The notes under the pieces are model-generated. The model did no database searches and was not told the DNA's origin. It saw only the letters and a list, made by a program, of their open reading frames with translations. From Rhodobiaceae bacterium (GTDB lineage: Bacteria; Pseudomonadota; Alphaproteobacteria; Parvibaculales; Parvibaculaceae): a stretch of 64,000 nucleotides of DNA. The stretch covers positions 3,460,001-3,524,000 of the forward strand of contig CP030277.1 of assembly GCA_003330885.1 (NCBI GenBank). Reading direction: 5' to 3'. How positions within the stretch are numbered: position 1 is the stretch's first letter; each line of letters starts with the position of its first letter. Of the stretch, positions 6,795 to 28,931 are shown in pieces. The translations under genes and the position numbers were made by a program.

Positions 6795-7025
6795 TCACTT
6801 CCCGCCTGCGATCCCGTCTTTCGGGCGCGAAGGCAAGCGACTCCAGACAGCTTCCGCCAGACTGAGTGCAACAACAAAAATGAGCAAAACCGCGACGATG
6901 CGCAGATCATTAAAGTCGGTCCCTTTGGCCCAGGCAGGAAACTGGCCCCACGCAAAATAGACGCCATAGCAGATGCCAGCAGCCATCGCGAGGCCGATCA
7001 CATGCCAAATCACTCGGACGAGCAT
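6795..7025 (-). CDS. Small two-helix membrane protein, last gene of the Rieske/haem operon
   Basis: 76 aa, not recognised. Two hydrophobic helices (about residues 5-26 and 43-60) joined by a short loop containing WGQFPAWAKGTD; the C-terminus is basic and polar. Its ATG overlaps the stop of the preceding gene by one base (TAATG), so it is translationally coupled to the Cys/His-motif protein. No catalytic residue is evident, and a structural subunit of the membrane complex is the simplest guess. The 69 nt downstream to the next region hold no clear terminator. Confidence 0.7.
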   Translation of the reverse strand: MLVRVIWHVIGLAMAAGICYGVYFAWGQFPAWAKGTDFNDLRIVAVLLIFVVALSLAEAVWSRLPSRPKDGIAGGK

Positions 7026-7795
7026 TACAGGACCTCCACACTGTTGAGGTCGACTTTGAAGACCATCAGGTCGCCCCGCCGCTCAATCTGGCCGTCAACC
7101 TGCACCCGTGCAGCGACAAAGCGTTGAAGCTCTTCGTCAATTGGGTTCCCGTCCTGATCGGAAAGGAGGAAAAATTCTGCTCCCTCCACGGGGGCAGTGC
7201 TGACGAAAACTGCCGGGATACCACCATTGAGACACAAATTGGCGCAGGCCTTGTGCGCGATACCTGTGCCAGGTCGCATGGCACCGACATAACACTTGCC
7301 GTCGCAAATCTCCCCTGTGAGGCGCCAGGTGCCGAGATCTGTCACGGAGAGATCAATCGCTTCGCGTGCATCGTCACCCAGCCCATCAACTGATGCTTGT
7401 AGAGGGACACGACGGCCCACCTGCAACATGTCGATCGTGCCCCGTTTCAACAGCACGCCGCCTACATCAACAACCTGCCCTGCGAGCGCTGCAGCCTTCA
7501 CCTGCACTCCTCGTTTCCCTTGCCCGGCAAGGAGAAGAGTGTGCCCTTCTGGGTAGGTTTCATTCGGAGCAACACGGACGAGAGGATAGGGTGCCGTCTC
7601 CAGAATCCCGGTGAATGTTTTGTGCTGAAAGAAAAACCGCCCTGGCCCAGGGTCTGGTTGCGTTGCAGAGATAAAATACCCGGCACCCGACATCGCTCCG
7701 ACAAACGCCAGAATGACCAAGATCATGAGAGAGCGGCTACCCCGCGGCACACCGCGTATATAGCCTACAAAAAAGTCGTCATGTGTCTTGGCCAT
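7025..7795 (-). CDS. Membrane-anchored protein with C-x3-C-x12-H-x2-C-x3-C motif
   Basis: 256 aa. One transmembrane helix at about residues 23-43, then a roughly 210-residue domain expected to face the periplasm. The striking part is residues 161-194, with C164, C168, H181, C184 and C188 between GEIC and NGGIP. I recall this kind of segment (GEI.D.KC..G.M.PG.G..H..CA..C..GGIP) from conserved uncharacterised proteins but know no assigned function. The spacing could bind a metal or cofactor, or form disulfides. It lies between, and overlaps by 1 nt with, the Rieske/haem gene and the 76-aa gene, so it is probably a subunit or partner of the same redox complex. Confidence 0.75.
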   Translation of the reverse strand: MAKTHDDFFVGYIRGVPRGSRSLMILVILAFVGAMSGAGYFISATQPDPGPGRFFFQHKTFTGILETAPYPLVRVAPNETYPEGHTLLLAGQGKRGVQVKAAALAGQVVDVGGVLLKRGTIDMLQVGRRVPLQASVDGLGDDAREAIDLSVTDLGTWRLTGEICDGKCYVGAMRPGTGIAHKACANLCLNGGIPAVFVSTAPVEGAEFFLLSDQDGNPIDEELQRFVAARVQVDGQIERRGDLMVFKVDLNSVEVL

Positions 7796-8850
7796 TAGAC
7801 GCTCTCCCCAATAAGGACCGGATCTACATGTGTTCCAGGTGGGTTGGGTGTTGGGTCAACAAGAATGTCACCGTCTTTAAGAAGCAGCTGGTACGTGGCG
7901 ATTTTCTCGGTAAAGGGAGCAGGTGCACACCCATCTTCAGGTCGGTATTGAAACCCGTGCCACGGGCAGGTGATGCAACCATCGATAATTCGTCCTTCGC
8001 CCAAGGGACCGTTCTGGTGTGCACACGCATTTGATGTAGCTGAGAGCTTCCCGCCATATCGAAATATCGCTATGCGTTCGCCGCCTGGCAGGGGCACAAC
8101 ATGGCCATGCTCATCTTCAAGGTCTTCCAGTCGTGCGACCTTAACCCAGTCGCACTCAACTGTGGCAGAGGTGGTCCGGTCTGCTTCCGTCTCGCGCTTT
8201 CCAGCTGCGACATGGAGAAGCAAAACGGCAGCGGAAAAGAAGAGCACAAGAACAGGGAAGATGGGGTCTGTCGCGCCCTGCATGTAACCAAAAAGCACAT
8301 GTGCCACCAGGGAGGCGTAGCCCACATAAATCATCATGTGGAGCGTTTTCCAGAAGGGTGGCGTAAAAAACTTCAACCAGAAATCATGGCTTGTAACGGC
8401 AAGCGCCAGCAGCACAAACAGCGAGAAAATTCCGAAAGCTTCAAAGGGGAAGCCCAGGAACTGTCCATAGTCGACATTGCTGGTGAGAAGGGCCACATAC
8501 CTGTCAGTTGGTGAAAAGACGTAATACCAATCAATGACATAGCTAGCGTGGGTCAGCGCGACAGCGAACGTCAAAACACCAAGGTGTCGACGGTTATACA
8601 GCAATGGAAGAAAGCGCTTATCAAGCCGGGCAAGCGGACCAATACATAAGATGATCGAGAGCAGCAGGAACGCGCAAGTGCCAAAGGCGCGCATGCGCAG
8701 AATGGGATAGTTCACCTGTTGTGATCGTTCGATTTCCATAGGCGCGAACTTGAGGAACAGCACGATGTAAAGCACGATGCCCGCAAGCGCTACGAGGTCA
8801 TATACGTATTTATTCGGGTTCCACTGAACTGGAGTGTATTTGACGCTCAT
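7795..8850 (-). CDS. Ferric-reductase-like (MsrQ-type) haem membrane domain fused to a Rieske [2Fe-2S] domain
   Basis: 351 aa. Residues about 15-215 form five to six membrane helices of the ferric-reductase/MsrQ superfamily. RRHLGVLTFAVALTH aligns by eye with the MsrQ segment bearing its haem ligand, placing H101, H171 and H184 at the three positions of E. coli MsrQ H91, H151 and H164. Residues about 232-335 are a Rieske domain with C276-x-H278 and C295-x2-H298 as cluster ligands (CAHQNGPLGEG...CPWHG). No NAD/FAD domain is present, so electrons must come from another protein or quinol. It is translationally coupled on both sides (ATGA upstream, TAATG downstream). Likely role: a transmembrane electron-transfer subunit; the acceptor is unknown. 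Confidence 0.85.
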   Translation of the reverse strand: MSVKYTPVQWNPNKYVYDLVALAGIVLYIVLFLKFAPMEIERSQQVNYPILRMRAFGTCAFLLLSIILCIGPLARLDKRFLPLLYNRRHLGVLTFAVALTHASYVIDWYYVFSPTDRYVALLTSNVDYGQFLGFPFEAFGIFSLFVLLALAVTSHDFWLKFFTPPFWKTLHMMIYVGYASLVAHVLFGYMQGATDPIFPVLVLFFSAAVLLLHVAAGKRETEADRTTSATVECDWVKVARLEDLEDEHGHVVPLPGGERIAIFRYGGKLSATSNACAHQNGPLGEGRIIDGCITCPWHGFQYRPEDGCAPAPFTEKIATYQLLLKDGDILVDPTPNPPGTHVDPVLIGESV

Positions 8851-9011
8851 TGGGGCTCTCCCGGGCTAGCAGCGGGAGGTGAGAGCTGGATTGGCGCGTG
8901 ATCAGAACTTTGCTGATAGTGAATGATGCCAGCGATGGCAAAAAGCAGCGGCAGGAGGAATGCCAATCCGCGCCAGATCGCAAAATGGGCAGTTCTATGT
9001 CGTCTTTTCAT
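8847..9011 (-). CDS. 54-aa single-pass membrane peptide
   Basis: Too short for usual gene-length cut-offs, but well supported. It has an ATG start 7 nt after the stop of the 70-aa gene, and its TGA overlaps the ATG of the Rieske/haem gene (ATGA). The product has a strongly basic start (MKRRHR), one hydrophobic helix (about residues 15-31, LAFLLPLLFAIAGII) and a polar Pro/Ser-rich tail predicted to lie outside. By positive-inside logic the N-terminus is cytoplasmic. Size and position suggest a small structural subunit or assembly factor of the membrane redox complex. I do not recognise the family. Confidence 0.7.
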   Translation of the reverse strand: MKRRHRTAHFAIWRGLAFLLPLLFAIAGIIHYQQSSDHAPIQLSPPAASPGEPQ

Positions 9012-9020
9012 GGGCGGCCC

Positions 9021-9233
9021 CTAGCTGGTTTTAAGTTCAAGGCGGATCCATCGCAGAACGACCAAAGGCCACAGGCTAACAATGGCCGGGATGAGCAAGG
9101 GGCGGAACAGATAAGCGCCGCGAGCGTCTTCATCAATGCGGTCAATGCCGATCAAGAGAAACAAGGCGCTAACCCCGACACCCACCAAGGCGTACATGCG
9201 CAAGGCGGCCAGGGCCATTTCAGCAAAATCCAT
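9021..9233 (-). CDS. 70-aa two-helix membrane protein, first gene of the Rieske/haem operon
   Basis: 70 aa with two hydrophobic helices (about residues 9-28 and 43-60) separated by an acidic loop (IDEDARG). The second carries the motif FRPLLIPAIVSLWPLVVLRW. A strong Shine-Dalgarno (GGGGGG) precedes the ATG. This is the first of five closely packed minus-strand genes (9233 down to 6795). Nothing in it suggests catalysis. The 184 bp between it and the divergent esterase gene should hold the operon promoter. Confidence 0.7.
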   Translation of the reverse strand: MDFAEMALAALRMYALVGVGVSALFLLIGIDRIDEDARGAYLFRPLLIPAIVSLWPLVVLRWIRLELKTS

Positions 9234-9417: not shown

Positions 9418-10245
9418 GTGTCCCGGGTTTTTTCAATCAATCTGCTCATAGTTTGTGCACTTGCGAGTTTCCTTGCGCTGCCTGCAGCGGCGTGTGGAAC
9501 GAGTGACACGGATTGTGTCGTGCCATCAGGGGACTATCGGATCTATCTGCCTGACAATTTGGCGGGTGAGCCGCCCGCGGGAGCGGTTCTCTTTTTTCAT
9601 GGGTGGAAGGGCTCCTCTGAGGGGGTGATGCGCAATGTGAGCCTGCAGGAGATGAGCGATCGCTTGCAATTAGCTCTCATTGCAGCAAATGGGCTTCGTG
9701 GCGGTTGGTCATTTCAAGGGGCGCCAGCAAGAGCCAGAAACGAGCTCGCCTATGTGGGAGAGGTGCTGGAAGATGTTGAGGTCCGGTTCCAAGTGCCAAG
9801 GGACAAAATCCTGGCCTCTGGTTTTTCCTTAGGTGCCTCGATGGTCTGGAGCTTATCCTGCTACATGGGGGATGAGTTTGCGGGTTTTGCACCTGTCGCG
9901 GGCACACTATGGAACCCGCTGCCAGAAAACTGTCCAAGCGATCTGCCGAACCTCATGCACTATCACGGGCAAAAAGACGGAACCTTTCCATTGGCCGGGC
10001 GGGCGATCGCTGGCGGCCTCTATCGTCAGGGCAACACATATGAGAGTTTTGATATCTGGCACTCCCAAGGCCAGTGTGAAAAGGAAGAGCCAGAGGTCCT
10101 AGAAACAGGACCTTTGCGTTGCGAACGCAGATCGGGATGCGGCGGCAGCGTTTTGGAGCTTTGCCTCCATGAAGGCGGCCACATTTATCGTGCTGCCTGG
10201 ATTGAGCGCAGCTGGGAAATTCTGTCCGGCCTTAAAGGTTGGTAG
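9418..10245 (+). CDS. Secreted polyhydroxybutyrate-depolymerase / LpqC-like esterase
   Basis: 275 aa, GTG start preceded by GAGGG. A signal peptide covers about residues 1-25 (cleavage near AAA-C). The rest is a small alpha/beta hydrolase: oxyanion-hole FFHGWKG (about 59-65), nucleophile S137 in GFSLGAS, acid in the HGQKDGTFP segment (about 182-190) and the terminal His in HEGGHIY. This arrangement and length match the poly(3-hydroxybutyrate) depolymerase/feruloyl-esterase (LpqC) family. Many Cys residues suggest periplasmic disulfides. Substrate could be a polyester oligomer or an aromatic ester; sequence does not decide. Confidence 0.8.
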   Translation: MSRVFSINLLIVCALASFLALPAAACGTSDTDCVVPSGDYRIYLPDNLAGEPPAGAVLFFHGWKGSSEGVMRNVSLQEMSDRLQLALIAANGLRGGWSFQGAPARARNELAYVGEVLEDVEVRFQVPRDKILASGFSLGASMVWSLSCYMGDEFAGFAPVAGTLWNPLPENCPSDLPNLMHYHGQKDGTFPLAGRAIAGGLYRQGNTYESFDIWHSQGQCEKEEPEVLETGPLRCERRSGCGGSVLELCLHEGGHIYRAAWIERSWEILSGLKGW

Positions 10246-10274
10246 AGTGGCGCGTCGACCATAGAGAAACAATC

Positions 10275-11546
10275 ATGACCACTGAAAATCACCAAAAACG
10301 GACCGGCGCGCTGTCTGGCCTTACTGTGCTGGACCTGTCGAGGATCCTCGCCGGACCAACGGCAACTCAATTGCTCGGCGATTTGGGCGCGGAAATCATC
10401 AAAATTGAGCGGCCCGGCAAAGGGGATGACACCCGCGCCTGGGGACCTCCCTTCCTGAAAGACAGGGAAGGCAAAGACACCGAAGAAAGTGCTTACTACC
10501 TATCCTCAAACCGCAACAAGCAATCCGTTGCCATCAATTTGGCCAGTGAGGAAGGCCGAGAGCTCATCCGTCAGCTGGCGGATGGTGCGGACATTCTGGT
10601 TGAGAATTTCAAAGTGGGAGATCTGGCGCGCTATGAGCTGGACTATGAGACGCTCTCTCAACGAAATCCTCGGCTGATCTATTGTTCGATTTCAGGTTTC
10701 GGTCAGACGGGGCCTTATGCCCCCCGCGCCGGATATGACTTTCTCATTCAGGGCATGGGAGGGATCATGAGCATCACAGGCGACCCTCTGGATCACCCGC
10801 AAAGCACAGGGCCGATGAAGGTAGGGGTCGGCATCGCAGACGTCATGTGCGGCATGTATGCGACGGTCGGAATTCTGGCAGCGTTGGAAGCGCGCCACAA
10901 ATCGGGCACTGGTCAGCACATAGACATATCGCTTCTGGACAGCCAGGTGGCCTGGTTGGTCAATCAGGGTACCTCCTATCTTGTCTCGGGAGACACACCG
11001 GTCCCTCTGGGAAATGGTCACCCGACCATTGTGCCTTATGAAACCTTTCCCGCCTCTGACAAGGCCTTCATCCTTGCTGTTGGAAATGATGGACAGTTTT
11101 CGAAGTTCTGTTCTGCTGCCGGTGCTGAGCACCTGTCGGCCGATGAACGTTTCGCAAAGAATGTTGATCGCGTACACAACCGTGATGTGCTGATCCCATT
11201 ATTGCAGGACCTGACCCGGCAAAAGTCAGCAGCAGAATGGATTGAGCTGTTGGAAGGGGCTGGCGTGCCTTGTGGGCCGATTAACACCATTCCAGACGTC
11301 TTTGCAGATCCTCAGATTCAGCACCGAGAAATGAAAGTGGAAATGTCTCACTCAACCTCAGGCAGCGGGACTGTTCCGCTCATTGGCAATCCACTCAAAC
11401 TAAGTGAGACGCCTGTTCAGTATAACCGGCCGCCTCCGGTGCGAGGTGCGGACACGAACAATGTTCTGGCAAGTAAGCTCCAACTCTCAGATGAGGAGAT
11501 GGCCGGGCTTGCAGAAGCAGGCGTGATAGAGGACAGAAAAATATGA
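10275..11546 (+). CDS. CaiB/BaiF family (class III) CoA transferase
   Basis: 423 aa. Transfers CoA between carboxylic acids through an aspartyl-CoA intermediate. The N-terminal LTVLDLSRILAGPTATQLLGD and DLGAEIIKIERP segments are family signatures. The catalytic Asp is expected in GYDFLIQGMGG (about residue 155). The ATG at 10275 begins where homology begins; the open frame runs further upstream but without similarity or a ribosome site. It overlaps the following ThDP enzyme gene by 4 nt (ATGA), so the two products probably act in one pathway. Substrate unknown. Confidence 0.88.
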   Translation: MTTENHQKRTGALSGLTVLDLSRILAGPTATQLLGDLGAEIIKIERPGKGDDTRAWGPPFLKDREGKDTEESAYYLSSNRNKQSVAINLASEEGRELIRQLADGADILVENFKVGDLARYELDYETLSQRNPRLIYCSISGFGQTGPYAPRAGYDFLIQGMGGIMSITGDPLDHPQSTGPMKVGVGIADVMCGMYATVGILAALEARHKSGTGQHIDISLLDSQVAWLVNQGTSYLVSGDTPVPLGNGHPTIVPYETFPASDKAFILAVGNDGQFSKFCSAAGAEHLSADERFAKNVDRVHNRDVLIPLLQDLTRQKSAAEWIELLEGAGVPCGPINTIPDVFADPQIQHREMKVEMSHSTSGSGTVPLIGNPLKLSETPVQYNRPPPVRGADTNNVLASKLQLSDEEMAGLAEAGVIEDRKI

Positions 11547-13147
11547 AAACCGGCGCGCAGATTATTGCCGACCATCTGCATGACGCAGGGTGTCGGACAG
11601 CCTTTGGTATTCCCGGAGGCGAAGTGCTCGCGCTGGTTGATGCACTGACCCAAAGTGGTATCCAGTTCGTGCTGACGAAACACGAAAACCCTGCGGGTTT
11701 TATGGCGGAAGGTGCATGGCATGCAACCGGCGCGCCCGGTATTCTTGTCGCAACTCTGGGACCCGGCGTCGCCAATGCGGTAAATGTCGTGGCTAACGCC
11801 CATCAGGACAAGGTGCCGCTCATCTTCCTGACCGGCCGCGTTGATGCAGCTGAGGCTGAAACCTATACCCACCAGGTCTTTGATCATCAGGCTCTGTTGC
11901 GGCCCATTGTTAAAGCGAGCTTTTGTGCCGCACCTGGGGCTGTCGGCGCGATGATTGAGAAGGCGCTTCTCATAGCCACCGAAGGTCAACCAGGTCCGGT
12001 CCATATTGATGTGCCGATTGGGGTCGCGGAGGGAGTGGTGCCTGAGGAAGACCGGCCTTTTTCGTCAGCACCGGCCCTTGGCGTGCCGCAGGGCGTTGCG
12101 CTTGAATGTGCAATCGCTAGTTTGGAGGCAGCGGAACGTCCCCTGGCAATCGCAGGCGTTGACGCGGTCAATGAAGAGGCCGGGCCCGCCATTCAGGCTT
12201 TTTGCGAGCGATATGGTGTTCCTCTCGTTACCAGCTACAAAGGCAAGGGGTTGATCGACGAAACCCATCCCTTGGTTATTGGCGGGGCGGGGCTGTCGCC
12301 CAAGGCCGACAATGTGTTGATGCCATTCATAGAACGGTCTGATCTAATCTTCCTGATTGGATATGACCCGATTGAAATGCGGGTGGGCTGGCGCGATCCA
12401 TGGGGGCCTGAGAAACAGGTAGTGGAGATAACGCCTGTCGTTCGGACCCACGGCATGCACAGGGTGAGCGAGAGCTTCTTGTCGCCAATAGCGGACACTC
12501 TCTCTGCATTTTCTGAAGCAACGGCGCGTGAGACATGGACGAATGGTGAAGCGGCCTCGGCAAGGACCGATCTGGCGACCGCGTTCGCCACCGTAGGCGA
12601 AAGTTTTTCCCCGGGCCATGTCTACGACACTTTGCGAAAGGCGCTCCCGGCCAACACCGTGATGACGACGGATAGTGGGGCGCATCGCATCCTGCTGTCG
12701 CAAAAATGGATAACCCACGCGCCTCGCACGCTCCTGCAATCTTCCGCGCTTTGCACAATGGGCTGTGCGGTGCCGATCGCAGCTGGATATAAGCTTTGTG
12801 CGCCTGACGTGCCTGTAGCAACTGTCTTGGGTGATGCGGGCCTTGAAATGATCTTGGGTGAGCTCGCCACTATCCGCGATCTTAGGCTCCCACTCATTAT
12901 CACCGTGATGGTGGACGAAAGCCTTGGTCTCATTGAAATGAAGCAACGGGCAATGGGGCGCGCCAATGCGGGGGTGGACTTTGACGGAACCGATTTCCCT
13001 GCAGTAGCAGCCGCTATGGGTGGCAAAGGCTTCTGGATTGATGATGTTGAGACGCTGGGACGAGAGGCAACAGCGGCATTGAGCCGCGACACCTTCACCC
13101 TGCTTGCCTGTCGTATTGGGCGGCGCGCGTATGATGGCGCTTTTTAG
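11543..13147 (+). CDS. Thiamine-diphosphate-dependent enzyme, acetolactate-synthase-like
   Basis: 534 aa with the three-domain layout of the ALS/decarboxylase family: PYR domain (about 1-170) with GIPGGE and the catalytic Glu in KHENPAGFMAEG; central domain (about 190-320); PP domain (about 350-534) with the ThDP-binding start LGDAGLEMILGELAT. The usual Asn pair at the end of the GDG motif is replaced by MVDESLGLIEMKQ, which sets it apart from true acetolactate synthases. It is translationally coupled to a CoA transferase, reminiscent of the frc/oxc pairing, but it is not clearly an oxalyl-CoA decarboxylase. A carboligase or decarboxylase acting on an acyl-CoA or 2-oxo acid is a reasonable reading. 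Confidence 0.82.
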   Translation: MKTGAQIIADHLHDAGCRTAFGIPGGEVLALVDALTQSGIQFVLTKHENPAGFMAEGAWHATGAPGILVATLGPGVANAVNVVANAHQDKVPLIFLTGRVDAAEAETYTHQVFDHQALLRPIVKASFCAAPGAVGAMIEKALLIATEGQPGPVHIDVPIGVAEGVVPEEDRPFSSAPALGVPQGVALECAIASLEAAERPLAIAGVDAVNEEAGPAIQAFCERYGVPLVTSYKGKGLIDETHPLVIGGAGLSPKADNVLMPFIERSDLIFLIGYDPIEMRVGWRDPWGPEKQVVEITPVVRTHGMHRVSESFLSPIADTLSAFSEATARETWTNGEAASARTDLATAFATVGESFSPGHVYDTLRKALPANTVMTTDSGAHRILLSQKWITHAPRTLLQSSALCTMGCAVPIAAGYKLCAPDVPVATVLGDAGLEMILGELATIRDLRLPLIITVMVDESLGLIEMKQRAMGRANAGVDFDGTDFPAVAAAMGGKGFWIDDVETLGREATAALSRDTFTLLACRIGRRAYDGAF

Positions 13148-13338
13148 GCAGACATCGCCTATTTAGCAGGCATTGTGCGCCGCTCGATCACAAATCCGTG
13201 TGCGGTTGATCGCAAAAAGCGGGAAGCTCATCGCGTACTCTCAAATGCAAGTGAACAACGGCTCAAGTGTGTAGAAATCAACTTCTGATTGGTGCTACGG
13301 CTAGTGCTGGGTACGCGGCATAAAACTGAGAGTGACCA
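13148..13338 (+). promoter_or_regulatory. Intergenic region upstream of the TTC38-like gene
   Basis: 191 bp. Contains two similar segments, CGCTCGATCACAAA and CGGTTGATCGCAAA, about 25 bp apart, which could be a degenerate direct-repeat operator. No terminator hairpin with a T-run was found for the preceding gene. Confidence 0.25.
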
Positions 13339-14724
13339 ATGACACATACAGACGCATTCGGATCAGATGTAACCATGGACAAGCGGACAACGCTTGACCA
13401 TTGGAATAAGACATCCCGCGCGTTCCTCGCCCATTCGTCATCCACCCCAAACCATCTTGCAGCGGTCCTGGAAGAAGCGCCGACATTTGCGCTCGCTCAC
13501 GCGTTTCAAGGTATTTCCTATCTGTCATTGGGTCGCAGAGAACTGATTGAAAATGCGCGCACCGCTCTGGAAAACGCGAAGCAGGCTGCTGCTGCCGTTG
13601 GGTGTACCAGAAGAGAAGGGCAATACATTCAAGCGCTGGAAGCATGGCTGGTAGGTCAGCCGCTCCAGGCAGCTGTCATAATGGACAATATATTGTCGGA
13701 GGCACCAGGCGATGCCATGGCGCTCAAGCTGGGGCACGCCATTCGCTTTATCTTAGGTGATGCAAAAGGCATGCGGCGCTCCATTGAAACAGTTCTGCCT
13801 GTCTATGACCAAGCACACCCGGCAACGGGATACGTATTGGGCTGTCACGCCTTTTCAGCAGAAGAGACCGGTGACTATGAACTTGCTGAAGCCCAAGGTC
13901 GAAAAGGTTTGGAAATGGCGCCAGACGACGCCTGGGGGCTCCATGCCATTGCGCACGTCTTTGATATGACCGGACAGCCTATGGCAGGTGCTGGATGGCT
14001 TGGAGGTCAAACAGAGCGATGGGCCCATTGCAACAATTTTGGATTCCATGTCTGGTGGCACCTCGCGCTCTTTTTGCTTGCAATTGGTGCGACGGACGAA
14101 GTTCTTGATCTTTATGATCATAAGATTCGTGCAGAGCACACCGATGATTACCGGGATATTTCAAACGCAGCCTCAATGCTCGTCCGCCTGGAAATCGAAG
14201 GTGTGTCGGTTGGAAACCGCTGGGAAGAGCTCGCAGATATCTGTGAGAAGAGAGCTCAGGATGGGTGTGTTGTCTTCGCCGACCTGCACTACATGATGCC
14301 GCTCGCGCGCTTAGGCCGCTCAGATGCAGCAAGGGCGCTCATTGAGACCCTCATAAAGAGCGCGACGAATGTGCATGGAGATATGAGCTCTGTTGCCAGC
14401 GCTGCGGGCGTGCCGGCTGCGCGGGGTATCCTCTCATATTATAGTGGCAATTATCGCGAGGCCTACCGTCATTTGGCGGCAGCGCGTTCCTCTATGCAGA
14501 GCGTGGGTGGCAGCCATGCGCAGAGAGATGTCTTTGAGCGACTGACGGTAGATGCTGCAATGCGCGCGGAGCTTTCGAACGATGCAATGTTGGTTTTGCA
14601 GGACCGCGAAAAGAATCGAGGCGCACCGGATGCGTTTTCCACCACGCGCCTGAAGTCTTCCGACGCAAGGTCTATAGACGAAGAACCACTGGTGATGGGT
14701 GTTTCAGCACCGCTGCTTGCCTAA
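13339..14724 (+). CDS. TTC38-like tetratricopeptide-repeat protein
   Basis: 461 aa, helical throughout with alternating Ala/Leu patterns of TPR-like repeats. The segment DDAWGLHAIAHVFDMTGQPMAG followed by NNFGFHVWWHLALFLL matches the signature of the TTC38 family (conserved His/Trp clusters in the GLHAIAH and HVWWH motifs). These proteins are widespread in bacteria and eukaryotes, with no firmly known biochemical role. The clustered His residues suggest a possible metal or active site, which is inference. GAGAGTG lies just before the ATG. It stands alone between the ThDP enzyme gene and opgC. Confidence 0.78.
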   Translation: MTHTDAFGSDVTMDKRTTLDHWNKTSRAFLAHSSSTPNHLAAVLEEAPTFALAHAFQGISYLSLGRRELIENARTALENAKQAAAAVGCTRREGQYIQALEAWLVGQPLQAAVIMDNILSEAPGDAMALKLGHAIRFILGDAKGMRRSIETVLPVYDQAHPATGYVLGCHAFSAEETGDYELAEAQGRKGLEMAPDDAWGLHAIAHVFDMTGQPMAGAGWLGGQTERWAHCNNFGFHVWWHLALFLLAIGATDEVLDLYDHKIRAEHTDDYRDISNAASMLVRLEIEGVSVGNRWEELADICEKRAQDGCVVFADLHYMMPLARLGRSDAARALIETLIKSATNVHGDMSSVASAAGVPAARGILSYYSGNYREAYRHLAAARSSMQSVGGSHAQRDVFERLTVDAAMRAELSNDAMLVLQDREKNRGAPDAFSTTRLKSSDARSIDEEPLVMGVSAPLLA

Positions 14725-14755
14725 AAATAGCCACTACTCTTCGGCAATTCTACTC

Positions 14756-14782
14756 TGTGGGCCCCAGGTGTATGGCCCCACA
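14756..14782. other. GC-rich hairpin without T-run
   Basis: TGTGGGCCC and GGCCCCACA form a nine-position stem with one C-C mismatch around an 8-nt loop, 31 nt after the TTC38-like stop codon. It lacks a T tract, so it could be a weak terminator, an attenuator or chance. Confidence 0.35.
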
Positions 14783-14855
14783 AATGGGTATTAAGCGGCT
14801 CTCTAAAGGGGTATGAGGACCGCTTCAGGTGGTTCGACATGGGGACTTTTTTCAC

Positions 14856-16001
14856 GTGACAGAAATTCAGAAACGGCCAAGAGACCCGCGTCTCGACTTT
14901 TTCCGCGGGCTCGGAATGTTCATCATTTTCATTGCCCATGTTCCCGGAAACTCCTGGACCTTGTGGATACCGGCGCGCTTTGGGTTCTCTGATGCTACTG
15001 AGATCTTTGTCTTCTGTTCGGGCATGGCCTCTGCCATTGCCTTTGGCCGCGTGTTCAACGAACACTCCTGGTCCATGGGGACCGCCCGCATTCTCCATCG
15101 GATCTGGCAGGTCTATTGGTCCCACATCGCTGTGTTCCTGACGATAGCCGCCATGCTCGTGACCATTGATCACCTGGGCGGCTTTGATGGTCTCTATGTC
15201 CGAAAACTCAACCTGCAGCACTTCTTTGCGCGGCCAGCTGAGAACTTGGTGGGCTATCTAACCCTGACCTATGTCCCTAACCTGTTTGATATCCTGCCTA
15301 TGTATTTGGGTATCCTAGCTCTGGTCCCGCTTGTGATGGCCTTAGGCATGCGCCACCCTGCCCTGGCAGGTCTGCTGGTCGCAGGTCTCTGGCTTGCTGC
15401 GAATTTTCATCTTCTGGATTTACCGGCAGAGCCTTGGTCTGATCGCACCTGGTTTTTCAATCCTTTTGCCTGGCAGCTTGTTTTTTTCACTGGATTTGCG
15501 TTTGGGTTGCGCTGGCTACCGGCCCCCCCTGTCAACAAGACACTCATCATCCTTGCCGCCCTGTTTGTTGTTCTCACCATCCCCTTTGCCTGGTATCGCG
15601 CCTACAACGCGCTCCCCTTCTTTGCCGAATGGAGAGGCGAGATTTCTTTCCTCATCAACAAAACGCGCTTTGGGTTTTTCCGCTATGTGCATTTCCTCTC
15701 CCTTGCGTATTTGGCATGGGTTGCAGCCGGGGAGGGCGGAAAGCGCCTCCAAGGTGGCGCGGTCTGGAATCGCTTTGTCACGATCGTGCAAAAGGTGGGG
15801 CAGCAATCCTTGGCCGTCTTCCTTGTGAGCCTCGTTGCTGCGCGTTTTGGTGGCTTCCTGCTTGATCAGATGGGCCGGAACTTTGGTTCCGCGGCAGTTG
15901 TAAACCTGGGCGGCTTTGTTCTGTTGATCGGGATTGCCTACTCTGTTGGGTGGTTCAAGGGGCAGCCTTGGAAGCTGGCACCGAAAGCACCAAAAGCCTG
16001 A
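14856..16001 (+). CDS. opgC: OpgC-domain membrane acyltransferase
   Basis: 381 aa. An integral membrane protein of the OpgC family, which adds succinyl or similar groups to osmoregulated periplasmic glucans. The N-terminal RDPRLDFFRGLGMFIIFIAH is the conserved entry motif (acyltransferase_3/OpgC type), followed by about ten hydrophobic helices. The GTG at 14856 is chosen because GGGGA lies 10-14 nt upstream and homology starts right after it; a GTG at 14829 is possible. It is convergent with opgH (13 nt gap), so all three glucan genes are adjacent though on opposite strands. Confidence 0.85.
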   Translation: MTEIQKRPRDPRLDFFRGLGMFIIFIAHVPGNSWTLWIPARFGFSDATEIFVFCSGMASAIAFGRVFNEHSWSMGTARILHRIWQVYWSHIAVFLTIAAMLVTIDHLGGFDGLYVRKLNLQHFFARPAENLVGYLTLTYVPNLFDILPMYLGILALVPLVMALGMRHPALAGLLVAGLWLAANFHLLDLPAEPWSDRTWFFNPFAWQLVFFTGFAFGLRWLPAPPVNKTLIILAALFVVLTIPFAWYRAYNALPFFAEWRGEISFLINKTRFGFFRYVHFLSLAYLAWVAAGEGGKRLQGGAVWNRFVTIVQKVGQQSLAVFLVSLVAARFGGFLLDQMGRNFGSAAVVNLGGFVLLIGIAYSVGWFKGQPWKLAPKAPKA

Positions 16002-16014
16002 TCCCAAAGCTCAA

Positions 16015-17949
16015 TCAGGCTGAAGACGGAACGGTGTCAGGCACTGGAAGCGCCAATGCATCTTTGTCTTTCGGCAGCACCATGGCCTTTGAGGGAGACA
16101 GCTGGCGGTGATATTGATCAGCTAACCTGACAATGGGAGGCGTCGTGAGCTGCTCCGGCGCGACAAGAAGATCAAACCGGTCTAACAGCACTCCAGGACG
16201 CTGTGCCAGCAGGCTAGAAAGCGGGGCGGCTAGCACAAGTCCGGTGACCACAGGAATGAGCCAAAGCGTAATAGCACCCGCTACGATCCCATAGAGGAGC
16301 CCGAGGCCCAAGATCGTTTCAACTGAGTGGATCCGAAGCAGATCACCGAAGTCATCGCGAGCAGCGGACCGACGTTGGGCATTCCAACCCTGTTCCTGAC
16401 CTGCCAGTGTTTTTACAACCGCCAGCGTCTGTTGGACCATAAGAACTGGCGCAACTGCTGCGGACAGAAGCACTTCAAGGGTGAAAGAGGTTGCTGCGCG
16501 AACACGTCCGCCCCATGCTTGCGCACTGTTGCGGCGTAGAATCTGGCTCAAAAAACCCAGCACTTTTGGCAAAAAGAGAACGCCAATGGTCACCGCAAAG
16601 ATCAATTGCATAGGCGTGACGTCGGAGTTGATGGTCAGGCTGCGGCTCACACTCTGCCAATGGTCTACAGCAAAGATCGACGCCATAGGATCCACAGTTG
16701 TGAAGAGACCCAGACAGATGAACATGAGCCACATGGGCGCTGCCATATAGGCCATGATGCCGTGAAGGAGATGGAAACGACTAATGGGATGCAGCCCAGC
16801 GGCGCCAACCACACCGACATGCTGGAGATTTCCTTGGCACCATCGTTGATCTCGCACGACATGGTCGATCAGTGTCGGGGGTGTTTCTTCGTAGCTCCCG
16901 CCCAGCTCGGTCATGAGACGAACTTGCCATCCTGCGCGTCGTAGCAATGCAGCTTCAACAAAGTCGTGGCTCATCACAACGCCCCCAAAAGGTCCGGTGC
17001 CTTTTAGATTTGGAAGGCCTGCGGAAGTGGCAAAAGCGCGCGTGCGAATGATCGCGTTGTGTCCCCAATAATTGCTTTCGCCGGAGAACCAGGATGCGAA
17101 TCCTCTTGCAAGAGTTTGTCCATAGGCAGCCGTCGCAAACTGCTGAAGGCGCCCGAAAAGCGTGTTGGTTTTGATGAGGCGAGGCACCGTTTGAATAAGG
17201 CCCACTGTTGGGTCCGAGGCCATCTCGTCGGCCAAATGACGGATGGTGCCGCCCTCCATGACGCTGTCTGCATCGAGCACGACCATCGCGTCATAAGCGC
17301 CACCCCAGCGCCGCACCCACTCTTCGATGTTCCCAGCCTTGCGACCCACATTGTCTGCACGACGTCGATAGAACAGAGACGCATCGGGCATGAGTTGCTT
17401 CGCTCTTTTGAACATCGCGAGTTCATCTGCTGCAGCGGCGCTGTCGCGCGTGTCGCTTAAAACAAAGAAGGAATATGCATGATTGCTGTCCGTTTCATTT
17501 AGGCTTTTCAGCATAGCGGTGGCATTTGCAAAGACGCGACCCGGGTCTTCATTATAGGCGGGTACGAGAAGAGCGACTTTCATTGAATTCGCGGGGCGAG
17601 GCGCTGGAATCGTGTCGCGGTTGCGCCTAAGAAAGCCAAGGATCACGTTTACGCCGGAAAGTGAAATCCAGAAGAAGTTCGCAGCAAAGAGGCTGGCAAT
17701 GCCGATTTCAGATGGCGTAATGCCGCCCACAGAGAACGCCGCAAGTGTTTCGTACAGCAGCCAGAGTGTTGTGAGGGTTGCAATGAAAAAGACACTGATA
17801 CGTCTCAGTGAGAGGAGCGCACGGTTTTCAGCTTGGTTTTGCTCTGCCGCAGCCGGGTCTGTGAACGGGGCATCAAAACACTGAGCCGGCATTGCCAGTG
17901 GTGCCTCAGGCGGCAAATATGTTTCTGATGCGGTCACTGACGCGTCCAT
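16015..17949 (-). CDS. opgH: Glucans biosynthesis glucosyltransferase OpgH (MdoH)
   Basis: 644 aa. Inner-membrane GT2 enzyme that polymerises the glucose backbone of osmoregulated periplasmic glucans from UDP-glucose and passes it to the periplasm. Catalytic signatures are clear: VLDADSVM (DxD) and the acceptor/product motif RDQRWCQGNLQH (QxxRW). Two helices precede the catalytic domain (about 47-100) and several follow it. The ATG at 17949 has GAGAAG upstream with good spacing; a GTG at 17961 would have none. The gene overlaps the end of opgG by 16 nt, so the pair is translated together. Shorter than E. coli OpgH (847 aa), mainly at both ends. Confidence 0.93.
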   Translation of the reverse strand: MDASVTASETYLPPEAPLAMPAQCFDAPFTDPAAAEQNQAENRALLSLRRISVFFIATLTTLWLLYETLAAFSVGGITPSEIGIASLFAANFFWISLSGVNVILGFLRRNRDTIPAPRPANSMKVALLVPAYNEDPGRVFANATAMLKSLNETDSNHAYSFFVLSDTRDSAAAADELAMFKRAKQLMPDASLFYRRRADNVGRKAGNIEEWVRRWGGAYDAMVVLDADSVMEGGTIRHLADEMASDPTVGLIQTVPRLIKTNTLFGRLQQFATAAYGQTLARGFASWFSGESNYWGHNAIIRTRAFATSAGLPNLKGTGPFGGVVMSHDFVEAALLRRAGWQVRLMTELGGSYEETPPTLIDHVVRDQRWCQGNLQHVGVVGAAGLHPISRFHLLHGIMAYMAAPMWLMFICLGLFTTVDPMASIFAVDHWQSVSRSLTINSDVTPMQLIFAVTIGVLFLPKVLGFLSQILRRNSAQAWGGRVRAATSFTLEVLLSAAVAPVLMVQQTLAVVKTLAGQEQGWNAQRRSAARDDFGDLLRIHSVETILGLGLLYGIVAGAITLWLIPVVTGLVLAAPLSSLLAQRPGVLLDRFDLLVAPEQLTTPPIVRLADQYHRQLSPSKAMVLPKDKDALALPVPDTVPSSA

Positions 17950-19505
17950 CGATATAACCACTTCTCGCTGGCCTGTTTCCCATCCTGTCGCAGCGCTATG
18001 CGAAGCTCTGATGAATTCTCTTCTTGCGGATCATATTGGAAGGTCAAGCGAAGCCCTCCGGTATAAGGGTTGGCTTCAAGAACAGGAAATTGAGCGAGGC
18101 CTTTGCTGGTAAAAATTTCTGGGACAAATTTATCTACAGTCTGTGCCATGGCAAGACCATTCAGACCGTCTTGACGTGCATAGTCGATGACAACGATTTT
18201 ACCGCCTTCTGGCCGTGCGCCAATACGGGTATTGATCACTTTCAGGAGACTGTTTGTGACAGGCGCGCTGTCTCGCCAAGAGAGCGTATAGGAGAACTCG
18301 TAACGCTCTCCTTTGAGGAAGGGCGCAGCGGGCCGCCAATAAGCGACAATATTGTCAAACGTTTCTGTCTCTGTTGGCAGTTCCACTAGAGTGACAGAGC
18401 CTTTGCCCCAATCGCCATGCGGTGTCACCCACGCAGAGGGGCGATCATTATAGTCGAGAGACAGATCGCCAAAATCTTCGAAGTCACGGGACCGCTGAAC
18501 CAGTCCAAAGCCTTTAGGGTTTCGATCCACAAAGGCACTCTCCTGAACTCCTAAGGGGTTGGCGAGTGGTCGCCATAGCCATTCTCCCGCGCCATTGTTG
18601 ACCGCCAGGCCATCTGAATCGTGCGCGCCGGAGCGGAAGTCGTCGAAACGATGTCGGTTCGTCTCGTCAAACAGGAACATGCTGGTCAGCGGCGCCAACC
18701 CAAAATTGGTGAGATCGCGGCGAGGAAACAAAACCGCCGAGACATCCATATCGGTTGTGGCGCCGGGTCGAGTCTGAAAGGTGTAGATGCCGGTAATACC
18801 GGGTGAGTCCATGAGCGCGTAAAGCGTGATGGGCTGACCCGCCTCCGCATTTCGTTGAATCCAGAAATCAGTAAAAATCGGAAACTCTTCGCCGCGCTCC
18901 TCACCAATATCAATGGCGAGCCCCCGTGCTGAGAGACCGTATACATGGCCTTTGGCAATCGCTCTGAAGTAGGAAGCGCCTTGAAAGACGAGAAACTCAT
19001 CAAGTGTATCGGGTGAATTGAGCGAGCCATGAAGGCGAAACCCGGAATAGTCGCCGCCAACCTCAGAGAGGTTTTCTGGTGCGGCTTTCCCTAGGGAGAA
19101 GAAGGCTGGATCAAAGGGAACAGGGACGACCTTGCCGTCGTCGATGAGATTGATGCGCACAGGATTGTTGAGAGCCCGCCCAGGCGGGAGCAGCTGGGCC
19201 GTCACGGACTCATTGGGGGAAAGAGGCAGGGAAAGGTCAGATTTGAACCGGATTGCTCGGTGTTGATCAAACGTCAGTGACGCCCAGCGCTCACTTGTCG
19301 GGATGGCGGGCTCATATGCGCGTTCTGAAAGATATTTTGCGTGCTGGACGAGGCTTTCGTGCGTGAATGGCGCCATAGGTCGCGGCAAGGGTGTGCCGAC
19401 AATGTCAGCACTGTCAGCAAACCCTCGCTGGGCAAACGGCACGCTGAGGGCTGTCGCCAATGCGACTGCGAGGACAAACGCGATATTTCTAATTCTCTTA
19501 GACAT
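17934..19505 (-). CDS. opgG: Periplasmic glucan biosynthesis protein OpgG (MdoG)
   Basis: 523 aa. A Sec signal peptide at about 1-30 (LAVALATALSVPFA, cleavage near GFA-DS) precedes the OpgG/OpgD beta-sandwich domain. Recognisable landmarks include QHRAIRFKSDLSLP, FQGASYFRAIAKGHVYGLSARGLAID and DYNDRPSAWVTPHGDWGKGSV. It is needed to process or modify the nascent glucan in the periplasm and is encoded directly ahead of opgH, as in the classical opgGH operon. Start codon is 55 nt downstream of the divergence point with the XRE gene, which is also on this strand. Confidence 0.93.
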   Translation of the reverse strand: MSKRIRNIAFVLAVALATALSVPFAQRGFADSADIVGTPLPRPMAPFTHESLVQHAKYLSERAYEPAIPTSERWASLTFDQHRAIRFKSDLSLPLSPNESVTAQLLPPGRALNNPVRINLIDDGKVVPVPFDPAFFSLGKAAPENLSEVGGDYSGFRLHGSLNSPDTLDEFLVFQGASYFRAIAKGHVYGLSARGLAIDIGEERGEEFPIFTDFWIQRNAEAGQPITLYALMDSPGITGIYTFQTRPGATTDMDVSAVLFPRRDLTNFGLAPLTSMFLFDETNRHRFDDFRSGAHDSDGLAVNNGAGEWLWRPLANPLGVQESAFVDRNPKGFGLVQRSRDFEDFGDLSLDYNDRPSAWVTPHGDWGKGSVTLVELPTETETFDNIVAYWRPAAPFLKGERYEFSYTLSWRDSAPVTNSLLKVINTRIGARPEGGKIVVIDYARQDGLNGLAMAQTVDKFVPEIFTSKGLAQFPVLEANPYTGGLRLTFQYDPQEENSSELRIALRQDGKQASEKWLYRWTRQ

Positions 19506-26044: not shown

Positions 26045-27658
26045 CTATTTCACTCCGCCATAGGCAACACCAGAGAGATCGGACATTTCACGTTTCCAGG
26101 TGGTCAGATCTTCCTGAGAAAATTGCGACAGGTGAGAGTGACCGCAGGCGCGTGCCATCACCTTCATGAGCTCTGTGGAAGCGTCGAAGAAATTTTTGAG
26201 TTGATGCGCTGATTTCTCAATGACGAGACGATTTACGAGGTGGGGCTTTTGCGTTGCTATGCCGACGGGACAATTATTCGTATGGCACGCCCGCATAGCT
26301 ATGCAGCCAATCGCCTGCATGGCGGAATTGGAGATGGCAATTGCGTCTGCTCCAAGCGCCAGCGCCTTCACAAAGTCCGCCGGCTTCCGAAGCCCACCCG
26401 TGATCACCAATGTCACATTCCTACGCCCGGCCTGATCAAGGTGTTTGCGGGCCCGGGCGAGTGCCGGAATGGTCGGCACAGAAATATTGTCGCGGAAGAT
26501 GATGGGGGCTGCACCGGTGCCACCACCACGACCATCGAGGATCACATAGTCCACGCCGACCTCAAGTGCCGCATCAATATCGTTTTCGATGTGTTGTGCA
26601 GAAAGTTTGTAGCCGATCGGAATGCCGCCGGTTCGTGACCGTACTTCGTCTGCAAATTCTTTGATTTGCGAAACTTCTGTCCAGTCAGGAAACCGCGGAG
26701 GGGAAATGGCAGACACGCCTTCATTGAGGCCCCTGACTTCCGCAATTTTCCCCTTCACCTTATTTCCAGGAAGATGGCCACCAGTGCCGGTTTTCGCCCC
26801 CTGGCCACCTTTGAAGTGGAAGGCCTGAACTTTATTGAGCTTGTCCCACTCAAAGCCGAAGCGGGCCGAAGCCAGTTCGTAGAAATAGCGGGAATTGGCC
26901 TGTTGCTCTTCAGGTAACATGCCGCCCTCACCAGAGCAGATCCCTGTCCCGGCAAGTTCGGCTCCGCGTGCAAGCGCTACTTTGGCGGGCTCAGAAAGCG
27001 CACCAAAACTCATGTCGGAAACCATCAAAGGGATCTCGAGCGTCAGCGGTTTCTGCGCGTTAGGACCGATGACCACCTCTGTTCCGACTTCGTCTTCGTC
27101 CAGCAATGGCGGCTTGTGAAGTTGTGCTGTGAGCAGTTGGATGTCATCCCAGTCAGGAAGCTCAACGCGGGGCACGCCCATGGCATCGACGACCCCATGA
27201 TGACCGGTTTTGGACAGCCCATCTTTTGCATATTGTTGAATGAGCCCGTTATAGGGCTCCTCTTGCGTGCCATGGCTGGTATCGGCATAGAGGCCGAGAT
27301 ATTCATCACGGTTGAACGGCTGAGGGTTCTTTTCCGCCCAGGCGGTGACTTCTTCCTCATCAACATAGACTTTGCCGCCTTTCACCCAGGAGGTGAATTT
27401 TTCAAGAGCTTCAGAATTGTTGTATTCGGAAACGCCTGTGTCGAGCCGATAGTCCCAGTTGTGAACGCCGCATATGAGGTTGTCATTGTCATCGACAAAA
27501 CCATCGGACATGAGAGCGCCACGGTGGAGACACCGTCCGTAAAAAACCGAGATTTCTTTGTCGAACCGAACGATCACAAGATCAACTGTGTCCACAAGCG
27601 CATAATGCGGTTCCCGGTCTTTCAAATCATCAAGTTTGGCGATCGCTACTTTTTTCAT
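26045..27658 (-). CDS. Rieske domain fused to a glutamate-synthase-like FMN/[3Fe-4S] domain
   Basis: 537 aa. Residues about 1-105 form a Rieske domain with C43-x-H45 and C63-x2-H66. From about 150 onward the protein matches the FMN-binding central/synthase part of glutamate synthase (GltB) and related archaeal-type proteins: SDMSFGALSEPAKVALARGA, FHFKGGQGAKTGTGGHLPG, LDGRGGGTGAAP and a [3Fe-4S] motif C452-x5-C458-x4-C463. There is no glutaminase domain, so it cannot be a standard ammonia-releasing GltB. The ATG at 27658 follows AGGA with good spacing. It is in an operon with an antiporter gene (16-20 nt upstream) and a conserved unknown (3 nt downstream). Substrate unknown. Confidence 0.85.
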   Translation of the reverse strand: MKKVAIAKLDDLKDREPHYALVDTVDLVIVRFDKEISVFYGRCLHRGALMSDGFVDDNDNLICGVHNWDYRLDTGVSEYNNSEALEKFTSWVKGGKVYVDEEEVTAWAEKNPQPFNRDEYLGLYADTSHGTQEEPYNGLIQQYAKDGLSKTGHHGVVDAMGVPRVELPDWDDIQLLTAQLHKPPLLDEDEVGTEVVIGPNAQKPLTLEIPLMVSDMSFGALSEPAKVALARGAELAGTGICSGEGGMLPEEQQANSRYFYELASARFGFEWDKLNKVQAFHFKGGQGAKTGTGGHLPGNKVKGKIAEVRGLNEGVSAISPPRFPDWTEVSQIKEFADEVRSRTGGIPIGYKLSAQHIENDIDAALEVGVDYVILDGRGGGTGAAPIIFRDNISVPTIPALARARKHLDQAGRRNVTLVITGGLRKPADFVKALALGADAIAISNSAMQAIGCIAMRACHTNNCPVGIATQKPHLVNRLVIEKSAHQLKNFFDASTELMKVMARACGHSHLSQFSQEDLTTWKREMSDLSGVAYGGVK

Positions 27659-27677
27659 CACGGGTCCTGTCAGTGAG

Positions 27678-28931
27678 TTAGGTATCGTCGGTTACCAGCG
27701 GCTTGGCTGAGTGAGTAATGGGTTCGGCCTCGGGACATTTGCCCTTAGATCCAACATGAGCGCCGTACCATCGCGCGGCGGGCAAGGCGGAGAGGCCATG
27801 AAGAAAAGCGCTGATCCATACTGCATTGATCGCGATGTAGAGAATAGGTTCGCCTAGTTCCATATCGATCTGCTGGACAATCAAGAGCGCAAAAAGCGCC
27901 GTGGCGAGACCTCGGGGGCCGAACCAGCCAAAGAACAAGCGTGTGGTCGTCGACGCGTCAGTGCCGATGAGTGAAAGCCAAATGGCAAGCGGACGCACGA
28001 CAAATAGACTGACGAGGATAAGAGCGAGTGTAGACCAGGTAAGGTGTTGGATTGCTTCTGGTACGAGCGCAGCACCGAGCAGGAAGAAAGCCGCCCATGT
28101 CAGGAGTTGGCCTTCGCTTTCTGTAAATTCATAGATGAACTTACAGCGTCCCTTCACCACATTGCCGAAGCAGAGCCCCGCGACGAACGCGGAGATGAAA
28201 CCATTGCCATCGACGAGTGTCGCCGCGAGATAGGCAGCGCCTGCCAGAGCGATGGCCCCGACGCCTTCATAGGTATCAGAGGTGAAGTCATGGGATTTCG
28301 CCCAAATCAAGACCCGTCCACCGAGATACCCCATAGCGATCCCGACAAGCGGCCCAAGGACCAGCTGTTTGGCGCCGAAAAGAGCCCAGTCGACGCCGTT
28401 CTGGTCCATGGCTTCCGCCGTCAGGCTCGCAAAGAGGAGGATCGCCGGCAGTGCAATACCGTCATTTAGTCCGCTCTCAACGGTGAGCGCGCGGCGGGGG
28501 CGTTCTGGCACATCCGGATTGGTGACAACGGCCTGACCAAGAGCTGCATCGGTCGGCGCCAGTATGGCAGCCATGAGAACAAGCGCCACAAGTGGCCATC
28601 CGGGCAGAAACGGCGCCGCCGCGAGCGTGCCCAAGGCAATGGTGAGGGGCAATCCGATCAACAACATGCGCTGCGGCCAGACATGCCTTTCTTTCAAGGC
28701 CTCGAGATCGATTTGCGAGGCATCGAGGAAGAGCAGAATAACCAACGCAATTTCAGCGACGAGGTGAAGAGTTTCTTCCGCATCTCCATGAAGCATCATG
28801 CCTGAATGAGAGAGGAGGAAGCCAAAGCTCAAAAAGACCATCGGTGCCGTGATGACGGTGGTCGTCAACCGCTTGGCGATCATCGTATAGCCCATCGTAA
28901 AGACGGCAGCGATCAAGAGCACCGAAGTCAT
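27678..28931 (-). CDS. Cation:proton antiporter, CPA1 (NhaP-like)
   Basis: 417 aa with about 12 transmembrane helices. The exchanger core shows FLDASQIDLEAL, ILAPTDAALGQAVVTNP (with the conserved Asp in APTD) and ALTVESGLNDGIALPAIL (ESGLNDG), all hallmarks of CPA1 Na+(K+)/H+ antiporters. No C-terminal regulatory TrkA domain. First gene of the antiporter, Rieske/GltB-like, unknown operon. The 5' flank (28932-29100) shows no other gene. Confidence 0.9.
   Translation of the reverse strand: MTSVLLIAAVFTMGYTMIAKRLTTTVITAPMVFLSFGFLLSHSGMMLHGDAEETLHLVAEIALVILLFLDASQIDLEALKERHVWPQRMLLIGLPLTIALGTLAAAPFLPGWPLVALVLMAAILAPTDAALGQAVVTNPDVPERPRRALTVESGLNDGIALPAILLFASLTAEAMDQNGVDWALFGAKQLVLGPLVGIAMGYLGGRVLIWAKSHDFTSDTYEGVGAIALAGAAYLAATLVDGNGFISAFVAGLCFGNVVKGRCKFIYEFTESEGQLLTWAAFFLLGAALVPEAIQHLTWSTLALILVSLFVVRPLAIWLSLIGTDASTTTRLFFGWFGPRGLATALFALLIVQQIDMELGEPILYIAINAVWISAFLHGLSALPAARWYGAHVGSKGKCPEAEPITHSAKPLVTDDT

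Follow-up and report, generated by a model that had tools for sequence, protein, structure and literature searches.

What is the role of a five-gene operon whose central product joins a ferric-reductase-type haem domain to a Rieske iron-sulphur domain, and whose other four products (p70, p54, CysP and p76) have no Pfam match above cut-off? The operon lies on the minus strand at positions 6795-9233 of a 64,000-nucleotide stretch of DNA, here called the window (G000:C1:3460001-3524000), from a Rhodobiaceae bacterium whose genome is a single 3.86 Mb contig. An earlier reading of the window from its letters alone (the sequence-only reading) had proposed a new membrane electron-transfer complex, in which the fused subunit, FRD-Rieske, moves electrons to or from a Cys/His protein alongside three tiny structural subunits. 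All five open reading frames (ORFs) were recovered where that reading had placed them and at the same sizes (Table 1). We found that the five genes are conserved together, and on balance we favour the reading that they encode a membrane-bound electron conduit of NOX/STEAP fold, fed by Rieske-tagged thiamine pyrophosphate (TPP) and flavin mononucleotide (FMN) enzymes and having a cytosolic Rieske domain where NOX proteins have their flavin domain.

Conservation of the five-gene set

From p70 to p76 the gene junctions of the operon are a 9-nt gap followed by overlaps of 4, 1 and 1 nt, and hydropathy gave the following numbers of strong helices: 2 in p70, 1 in p54, 6 in FRD-Rieske, 1 in CysP and 2 in p76. 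A scan of genome contigs returned 335 candidate stretches encoding a relative, of which 80 were kept. These 80 relatives are 52-95% identical, all of full or near full length, and were found in Rhodobacteraceae, Hyphomicrobiales, Rhodospirillales, Acetobacteraceae and unclassified Alphaproteobacteria, together with two bins, labelled Myxococcota and Nitrosovibrio respectively. The nearest named genomes were those of the unclassified alphaproteobacterium Mf 1.05b.01 (95% identity) and a “Rhodobiaceae” metagenome-assembled genome (MAG). Within a phylum-wide sample of 299 genomes, matches were confined to genomes of the same class. The same five genes are carried by Rhizobium plasmids, where they are annotated as a “Rieske 2Fe-2S domain-containing protein” and four hypothetical proteins.

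We counted gene content in 96 loci with FRD-Rieske, nearly all from Alphaproteobacteria. CysP was found in 95 of these, a p54-like ORF in 94, p70 in 93 and a p76-like ORF in 87; it should be noted that p54 and p76 diverge fast and that position and helix content served in part to assign their homologues (one helix in 37 of 38 unfused p54 proteins and two helices in 82 of 87 p76-like ORFs). The small genes are therefore kept with FRD-Rieske, which is the co-occurrence on which the sequence-only reading had staked its proposal. Gene order and tight spacing also recur across the loci, usually with overlaps of 1-4 nt, the commonest junction being a 4-nt overlap (81 loci before FRD-Rieske, 57 before CysP and 44 before p76). 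Approximately 54 of the 93 loci with p70 have p70 and p54 as a single three-helix gene whose C-terminal part is p54 and which ends at the start of FRD-Rieske, mostly 4 nt inside it; this fused form is typical of Rhodobacteraceae-type loci and needs only two changes on the FRD-Rieske tree. Conserved positions in p70 are G18, F25, R44, P49, W55 and P56.

The five genes co-occur in order as one co-conserved system, and chance is far off as an explanation. Taken with the predicted fold described below, conservation, gene order and the p70-p54 fusion make a membrane electron-transfer complex of FRD-Rieske, the Cys/His protein and tiny membrane subunits well supported, and all five proteins may form a single complex. 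The operon is widely conserved in Alphaproteobacteria yet apparently undescribed: in the open-access literature (subscription papers were largely outside the search) we found no account of it, of its small subunits, of CysP or of the partners.

Table 1 Operon genes, candidate partners and neighbouring genes (window positions unless a genome position is given)
Feature	Position	Strand	Description
p70, first gene of operon	9021..9233	-	70 aa; two predicted membrane helices
p54	8847..9011	-	54 aa; one helix; basic R..HR..H N-terminus; periplasmic tail presumed
FRD-Rieske	7795..8850	-	351 aa; six-helix ferric-reductase-type haem domain (~1-225) and ferredoxin-type Rieske [2Fe-2S] domain (~230-340)
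CysP	7025..7795	-	256 aa; membrane-anchored Cys/His/Met protein; N-terminal helix, then two small beta-barrel domains
p76, last gene of operon	6795..7025	-	76 aa; two predicted helices
Rieske-FMN glutamate-synthase protein (Rieske-synthase)	26045..27661	-	538 aa; Pfam Rieske and Glu_synthase; candidate soluble partner
Cation/proton antiporter adjoining the Rieske-synthase gene	27678..28931	-	Pfam Na_H_Exchanger; a member of its family lies near the operon in 9 loci
Rieske-TPP enzyme of host genome	G000:3533294-3535279		~9 kb past the window end
Divergent cluster beside operon	9418..16001	+	Secreted esterase, CoA-transferase III, Rieske-free TPP enzyme, TPR protein, OpgC; not assigned to the complex

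Domains and predicted folds of FRD-Rieske and CysP

By its domain matches FRD-Rieske is a member of the FRD superfamily with a ferredoxin-type Rieske domain. Pfam Ferric_reduct (PF01794) covers residues 57-181 with 41.7 bits (cut-off 28; 45 bits in the genome-wide search) and Pfam Rieske (PF00355) covers residues 234-320 with 58.1 bits (cut-off 20.3). Across 95 homologues the cluster-ligand pattern C-x-H and C-x2-H is present and C276, H278, C295 and H298 are invariant, as are H89, H101, H155, H171 and H184, while H213 is kept in 97%. All seven ligand positions named by the sequence-only reading (H101, H171, H184 and the four of the cluster) therefore hold, and its list was incomplete in that H89, H155 and H213 were missed. 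H89, H101, H171 and H184 sit on model helices 87-112 and 164-190 (helices three and five) and are putative haem ligands.

The AlphaFold2 model of FRD-Rieske (predicted local distance difference test, pLDDT, 85.6) has six membrane helices, and we compared it to solved structures. The membrane part was closest to STEAP2 (Z 18.0, root-mean-square deviation (rmsd) 3.4, 206 aligned), with NOX5 at Z 16.3, and the Rieske part was closest to the ferredoxins of dioxygenases (BphA3: Z 15.7, rmsd 1.9, 105 aligned). FRD-Rieske thus has the predicted membrane fold and the histidines of helices three and five in common with NOX/DUOX proteins and the STEAP metalloreductases, but has a Rieske domain at the position of their cytosolic FAD/NADPH part, and its partner genes differ. 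Membership of NOX was rejected, as no flavin or NAD domain was among the Pfam matches of FRD-Rieske. The similarity to NOX5 and DUOX raises the idea that superoxide is produced at the outer membrane face; we regard this as very improbable, since the defining FAD and NADPH domains are absent and the presence of a co-conserved, dedicated protein in the periplasm points to a protein as acceptor and not to free oxygen.

The extra cysteine pair of bc1-type Rieske proteins is not present in the cluster motifs of FRD-Rieske (CAHQNG and CPWHGF), and its absence suggests that the cluster is low-potential and ferredoxin-like. A high-potential Rieske domain of bc1 type was accordingly rejected, the nearest fold being of ferredoxin type. 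The Rieske ferredoxins of aromatic dioxygenases (CarAc, BphA3) are the nearest kin of this domain in both sequence and fold; unlike these, it is fused to a membrane haem domain and has no oxygenase linkage. The six helices and the basic loops NRRH and GKRETEADR point to both ends of FRD-Rieske being cytosolic. Hydropathy and the NOX/STEAP fold place the Rieske domain in the cytosol, where it would face soluble Rieske enzymes, and CysP in the periplasm. A 2013 survey (PMC3591440) counts Rieske among the electron-transfer domains that FRD proteins carry as fusions; it lists the architecture in a domain figure and there gives no operon, subunits, partners or function.

CysP has a helix at residues 18-45 followed by two small barrels (AlphaFold2 pLDDT 92.5). 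The second barrel bears the motif GEICDxKCxxGxMxPGxGxxHxxCAxxC, in which C168, M173, H181, C184 and C188 are invariant among homologues. A structure search matched the first barrel to generic OB folds with Z up to 7.8 (the Cys-bearing second barrel was barely tested by it), comparison of a CysP profile with solved structures yielded a best E of 0.012, and a Pfam search gave weak DUF matches only. The motif is shared by short exported proteins (E 1e-7 to 1e-4), and no Pfam family above cut-off covers these. In three genomes such short proteins are encoded close to SCO1/SenC genes (L047:7925-8398, L050:8552-9073 and L051:8101-8526), and this proximity hints at a role involving metals or thiols. 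We also observed one open frame of 611 codons joining FRD-Rieske and CysP in a roseobacter MAG (L103:4834-6666), which is either a real fusion or an assembly error.

These features bear on the suggestion that FRD-Rieske is a STEAP-like metalloreductase, or serves cofactor assembly, with CysP binding copper or iron at a Cys3/His/Met site in the periplasm. The top fold matches of the membrane part (STEAP2 and STEAP4), the invariant residues of CysP and the proximity of its short relatives to SCO1/SenC genes would all fit, as would small exported YHS-domain-like proteins, recognised by eye, near five loci (including L041, L042, L086 and L092). However, the scores of STEAP and NOX-type folds differ by no more than 2 Z units, CysP itself has no conspicuous SCO1-like gene beside it, and the linked genes described below indicate central metabolism and not metal transport. 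We consider a metal reductase or cofactor-assembly machine improbable.

Rieske-tagged enzymes linked to the operon

Clustering of the neighbours in the 96 loci identified two other frequent families: Rieske-FMN-glutamate-synthase proteins in 34 loci and TPP enzymes in 41, the latter with an N-terminal Rieske domain in 30 of the 41. Up to 34 of the 96 loci have the Rieske-synthase gene next to the operon, often overlapping it by 4 nt. A string of seven genes is common, in which Rieske-synthase overlaps or abuts p70 at the upstream end and Rieske-TPP overlaps or abuts p76 at the downstream end. The sequence-only reading had noted that no flavin domain is encoded. This is true of the operon alone: elsewhere in the genome, Rieske-synthase lies in the window and Rieske-TPP just outside it, and both flank the operon in other genomes.

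For the catalytic part of Rieske-TPP the best models were pyruvate oxidase (396 bits, under its cut-off of 742) and the quinone-dependent pyruvate dehydrogenase PoxB. The match to the PoxB model ends at position 530 of 574, approximately 44 residues early, and the C-terminal end of quinone-dependent pyruvate dehydrogenase is its membrane-binding peptide. Rieske-TPP differs from PoxB in its N-terminal Rieske domain and in a match which stops before the C-terminus of the model, with scores below curated cut-offs.

We also examined whether the enzymes and FRD-Rieske occur in the same genomes, using a class sample of 289 genomes and a family sample of 248 genomes of one family; p-values ignore the relatedness of genomes. 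FRD-Rieske was found in 15 genomes of the class sample. Rieske-TPP was found in 13, sharing 7 with FRD-Rieske (expected 0.7; genus-level p 9e-4), and Rieske-synthase in 8, again sharing 7 (expected 0.4; genus-level p 2e-5). In the family sample, Rieske-synthase (24 genomes) and FRD-Rieske (23 genomes) shared 15 (expected 2.2; p 1e-12), while a form of the synthase matching only past the Rieske part (CDGSH where examined) was found in 23 genomes, 3 of them with FRD-Rieske (expected 2.1). On a quick FRD-Rieske tree with many weak forks, at least 15 changes are needed in linkage to the synthase and at least 13 in linkage to Rieske-TPP; these changes indicate that the association is repeated and was not inherited once.

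The two enzymes also occur with other iron-sulphur domains. In each of the four genomes without FRD-Rieske that were examined (L140, L141, L142 and L143), the protein of the synthase family carried a CDGSH iron-sulphur domain at its N-terminus, and several Rieske-TPP proteins of genomes without FRD-Rieske also bear CDGSH and Fer4_19 (L133, L135, L136 and L138). Iron-sulphur domains have thus been swapped modularly on two unrelated enzymes. Both CDGSH-Glu_synthase and CDGSH-Rieske combinations appear in PMC5859297.

Inspection of the neighbours of FRD-Rieske loci without Rieske enzymes gave no common third partner. In roseobacter loci (L077, L110, L116 and relatives), TctA/TctB-like tricarboxylate-transporter genes (named by eye) can precede the extended operon and ABC-transporter genes, of tungstate type by eye, can follow it; these neighbours possibly hint at a substrate or cofactor. 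Rhizobium plasmids (L031-L033) and two Rhodobacteraceae loci (L086 and L092) have most genes of the divergent cluster at 9418-16001 in the region next to the operon. At 14829-19505 of the window OpgC, a glycosyltransferase and MdoG (OpgG) together represent osmoregulated periplasmic glucan synthesis, which is probably unrelated to the operon.

A candidate conduit fed by Rieske-tagged enzymes

In the conduit which we favour, FRD-Rieske would cross the membrane six times and hold haems between its third and fifth helices, with its cytosolic ferredoxin-type cluster sitting where NADPH oxidases have their flavin/NADPH domain. The pyruvate-oxidase-like TPP enzyme and the glutamate-synthase-like FMN enzyme would give up single electrons from flavin/TPP intermediates through their own Rieske clusters, and these electrons would pass to the cluster of FRD-Rieske, then to its haems and from there to the quinone pool or to a metal/thiol site of periplasmic CysP. 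p70, p54 and p76 would be structural membrane subunits. Cofactor binding, complex formation, topology, contact between partner and conduit, substrate, final acceptor and electron direction are all deduced here, and the direction away from the enzymes is proposed mainly because the TPP partner is oxidase-like.

Several findings weigh against this reading. In the host genome the operon, Rieske-synthase and Rieske-TPP are 17-65 kb apart and do not form one operon. Neither Rieske enzyme is present in 8 of the 15 FRD-Rieske genomes of the class sample, and FRD-Rieske is absent from 9 of the 24 Rieske-synthase genomes of the family sample and from 6 of the 13 Rieske-TPP genomes of the class sample. 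Glutamate-synthase domains normally consume electrons, so that with this partner electrons could run the other way. The 8 genomes led us to reject both enzymes as obligatory partners, and a strict requirement of Rieske-synthase for FRD-Rieske was likewise rejected, the two being found together in 7 of 8 genomes of the class sample but 15 of 24 of the family sample; the association is one of enrichment and not of strict dependence. As each occurs without the other, the conduit must serve further clients, and the Rieske enzymes must have further acceptors.

Some of these findings fit a flow like that of MsrQ, in which FRD-Rieske takes electrons from quinol and passes them on in one of two directions: outward, where CysP would serve reduction or repair in the periplasm, or inward, where its Rieske domain would supply Rieske-synthase for reductive biosynthesis. 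MsrQ (YedZ), the haem subunit of the methionine-sulphoxide reductase MsrPQ, is likewise a six-helix protein of the FRD superfamily with a periplasmic partner, residues 53-221 of FRD-Rieske align to its model, the FMN domains of glutamate synthases are usually reductive, and about half of the sampled FRD-Rieske genomes are without Rieske-tagged donors. Against this, the MsrQ model (NCBIfam NF003831) gave 35.2 bits, far under its cut-off of 130, so that the “MsrQ-like” label of the sequence-only reading is correct at the level of the superfamily but not for MsrQ proper, from which FRD-Rieske differs in its added Rieske domain, its partner CysP and its three small subunits. No gene for the molybdopterin protein MsrP was found in the operon or the scanned neighbours, and the host genome encodes MsrP (at ~2.0 Mb) and another MsrQ-like protein elsewhere. 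The TPP partner also looks like an oxidase which releases electrons. We consider such a reversed flow unlikely.

More tentatively, the conduit fed by Rieske-tagged enzymes might be a hitherto undescribed respiratory entry complex, in which TPP and FMN enzymes of central metabolism are wired through attached Rieske clusters straight into a NOX-fold transmembrane haem protein without NAD(P)H, electron transfer flavoprotein or soluble ferredoxin, and in which the type of cluster attached to the enzymes (Rieske and not CDGSH) matches the presence of that acceptor. If the conduit is as proposed, it would link the chemistry of 2-oxo acids and amino acids in the cytosol to the membrane by a new route, and proteins of FRD/NOX fold could be fed by Rieske-tagged enzymes rather than by flavin domains. 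The operon is present in hundreds of alphaproteobacterial genomes, many of them of marine roseobacters and rhizobia, where the annotation calls four of the five products hypothetical, and the named partner enzymes make the question of its substrate directly testable.

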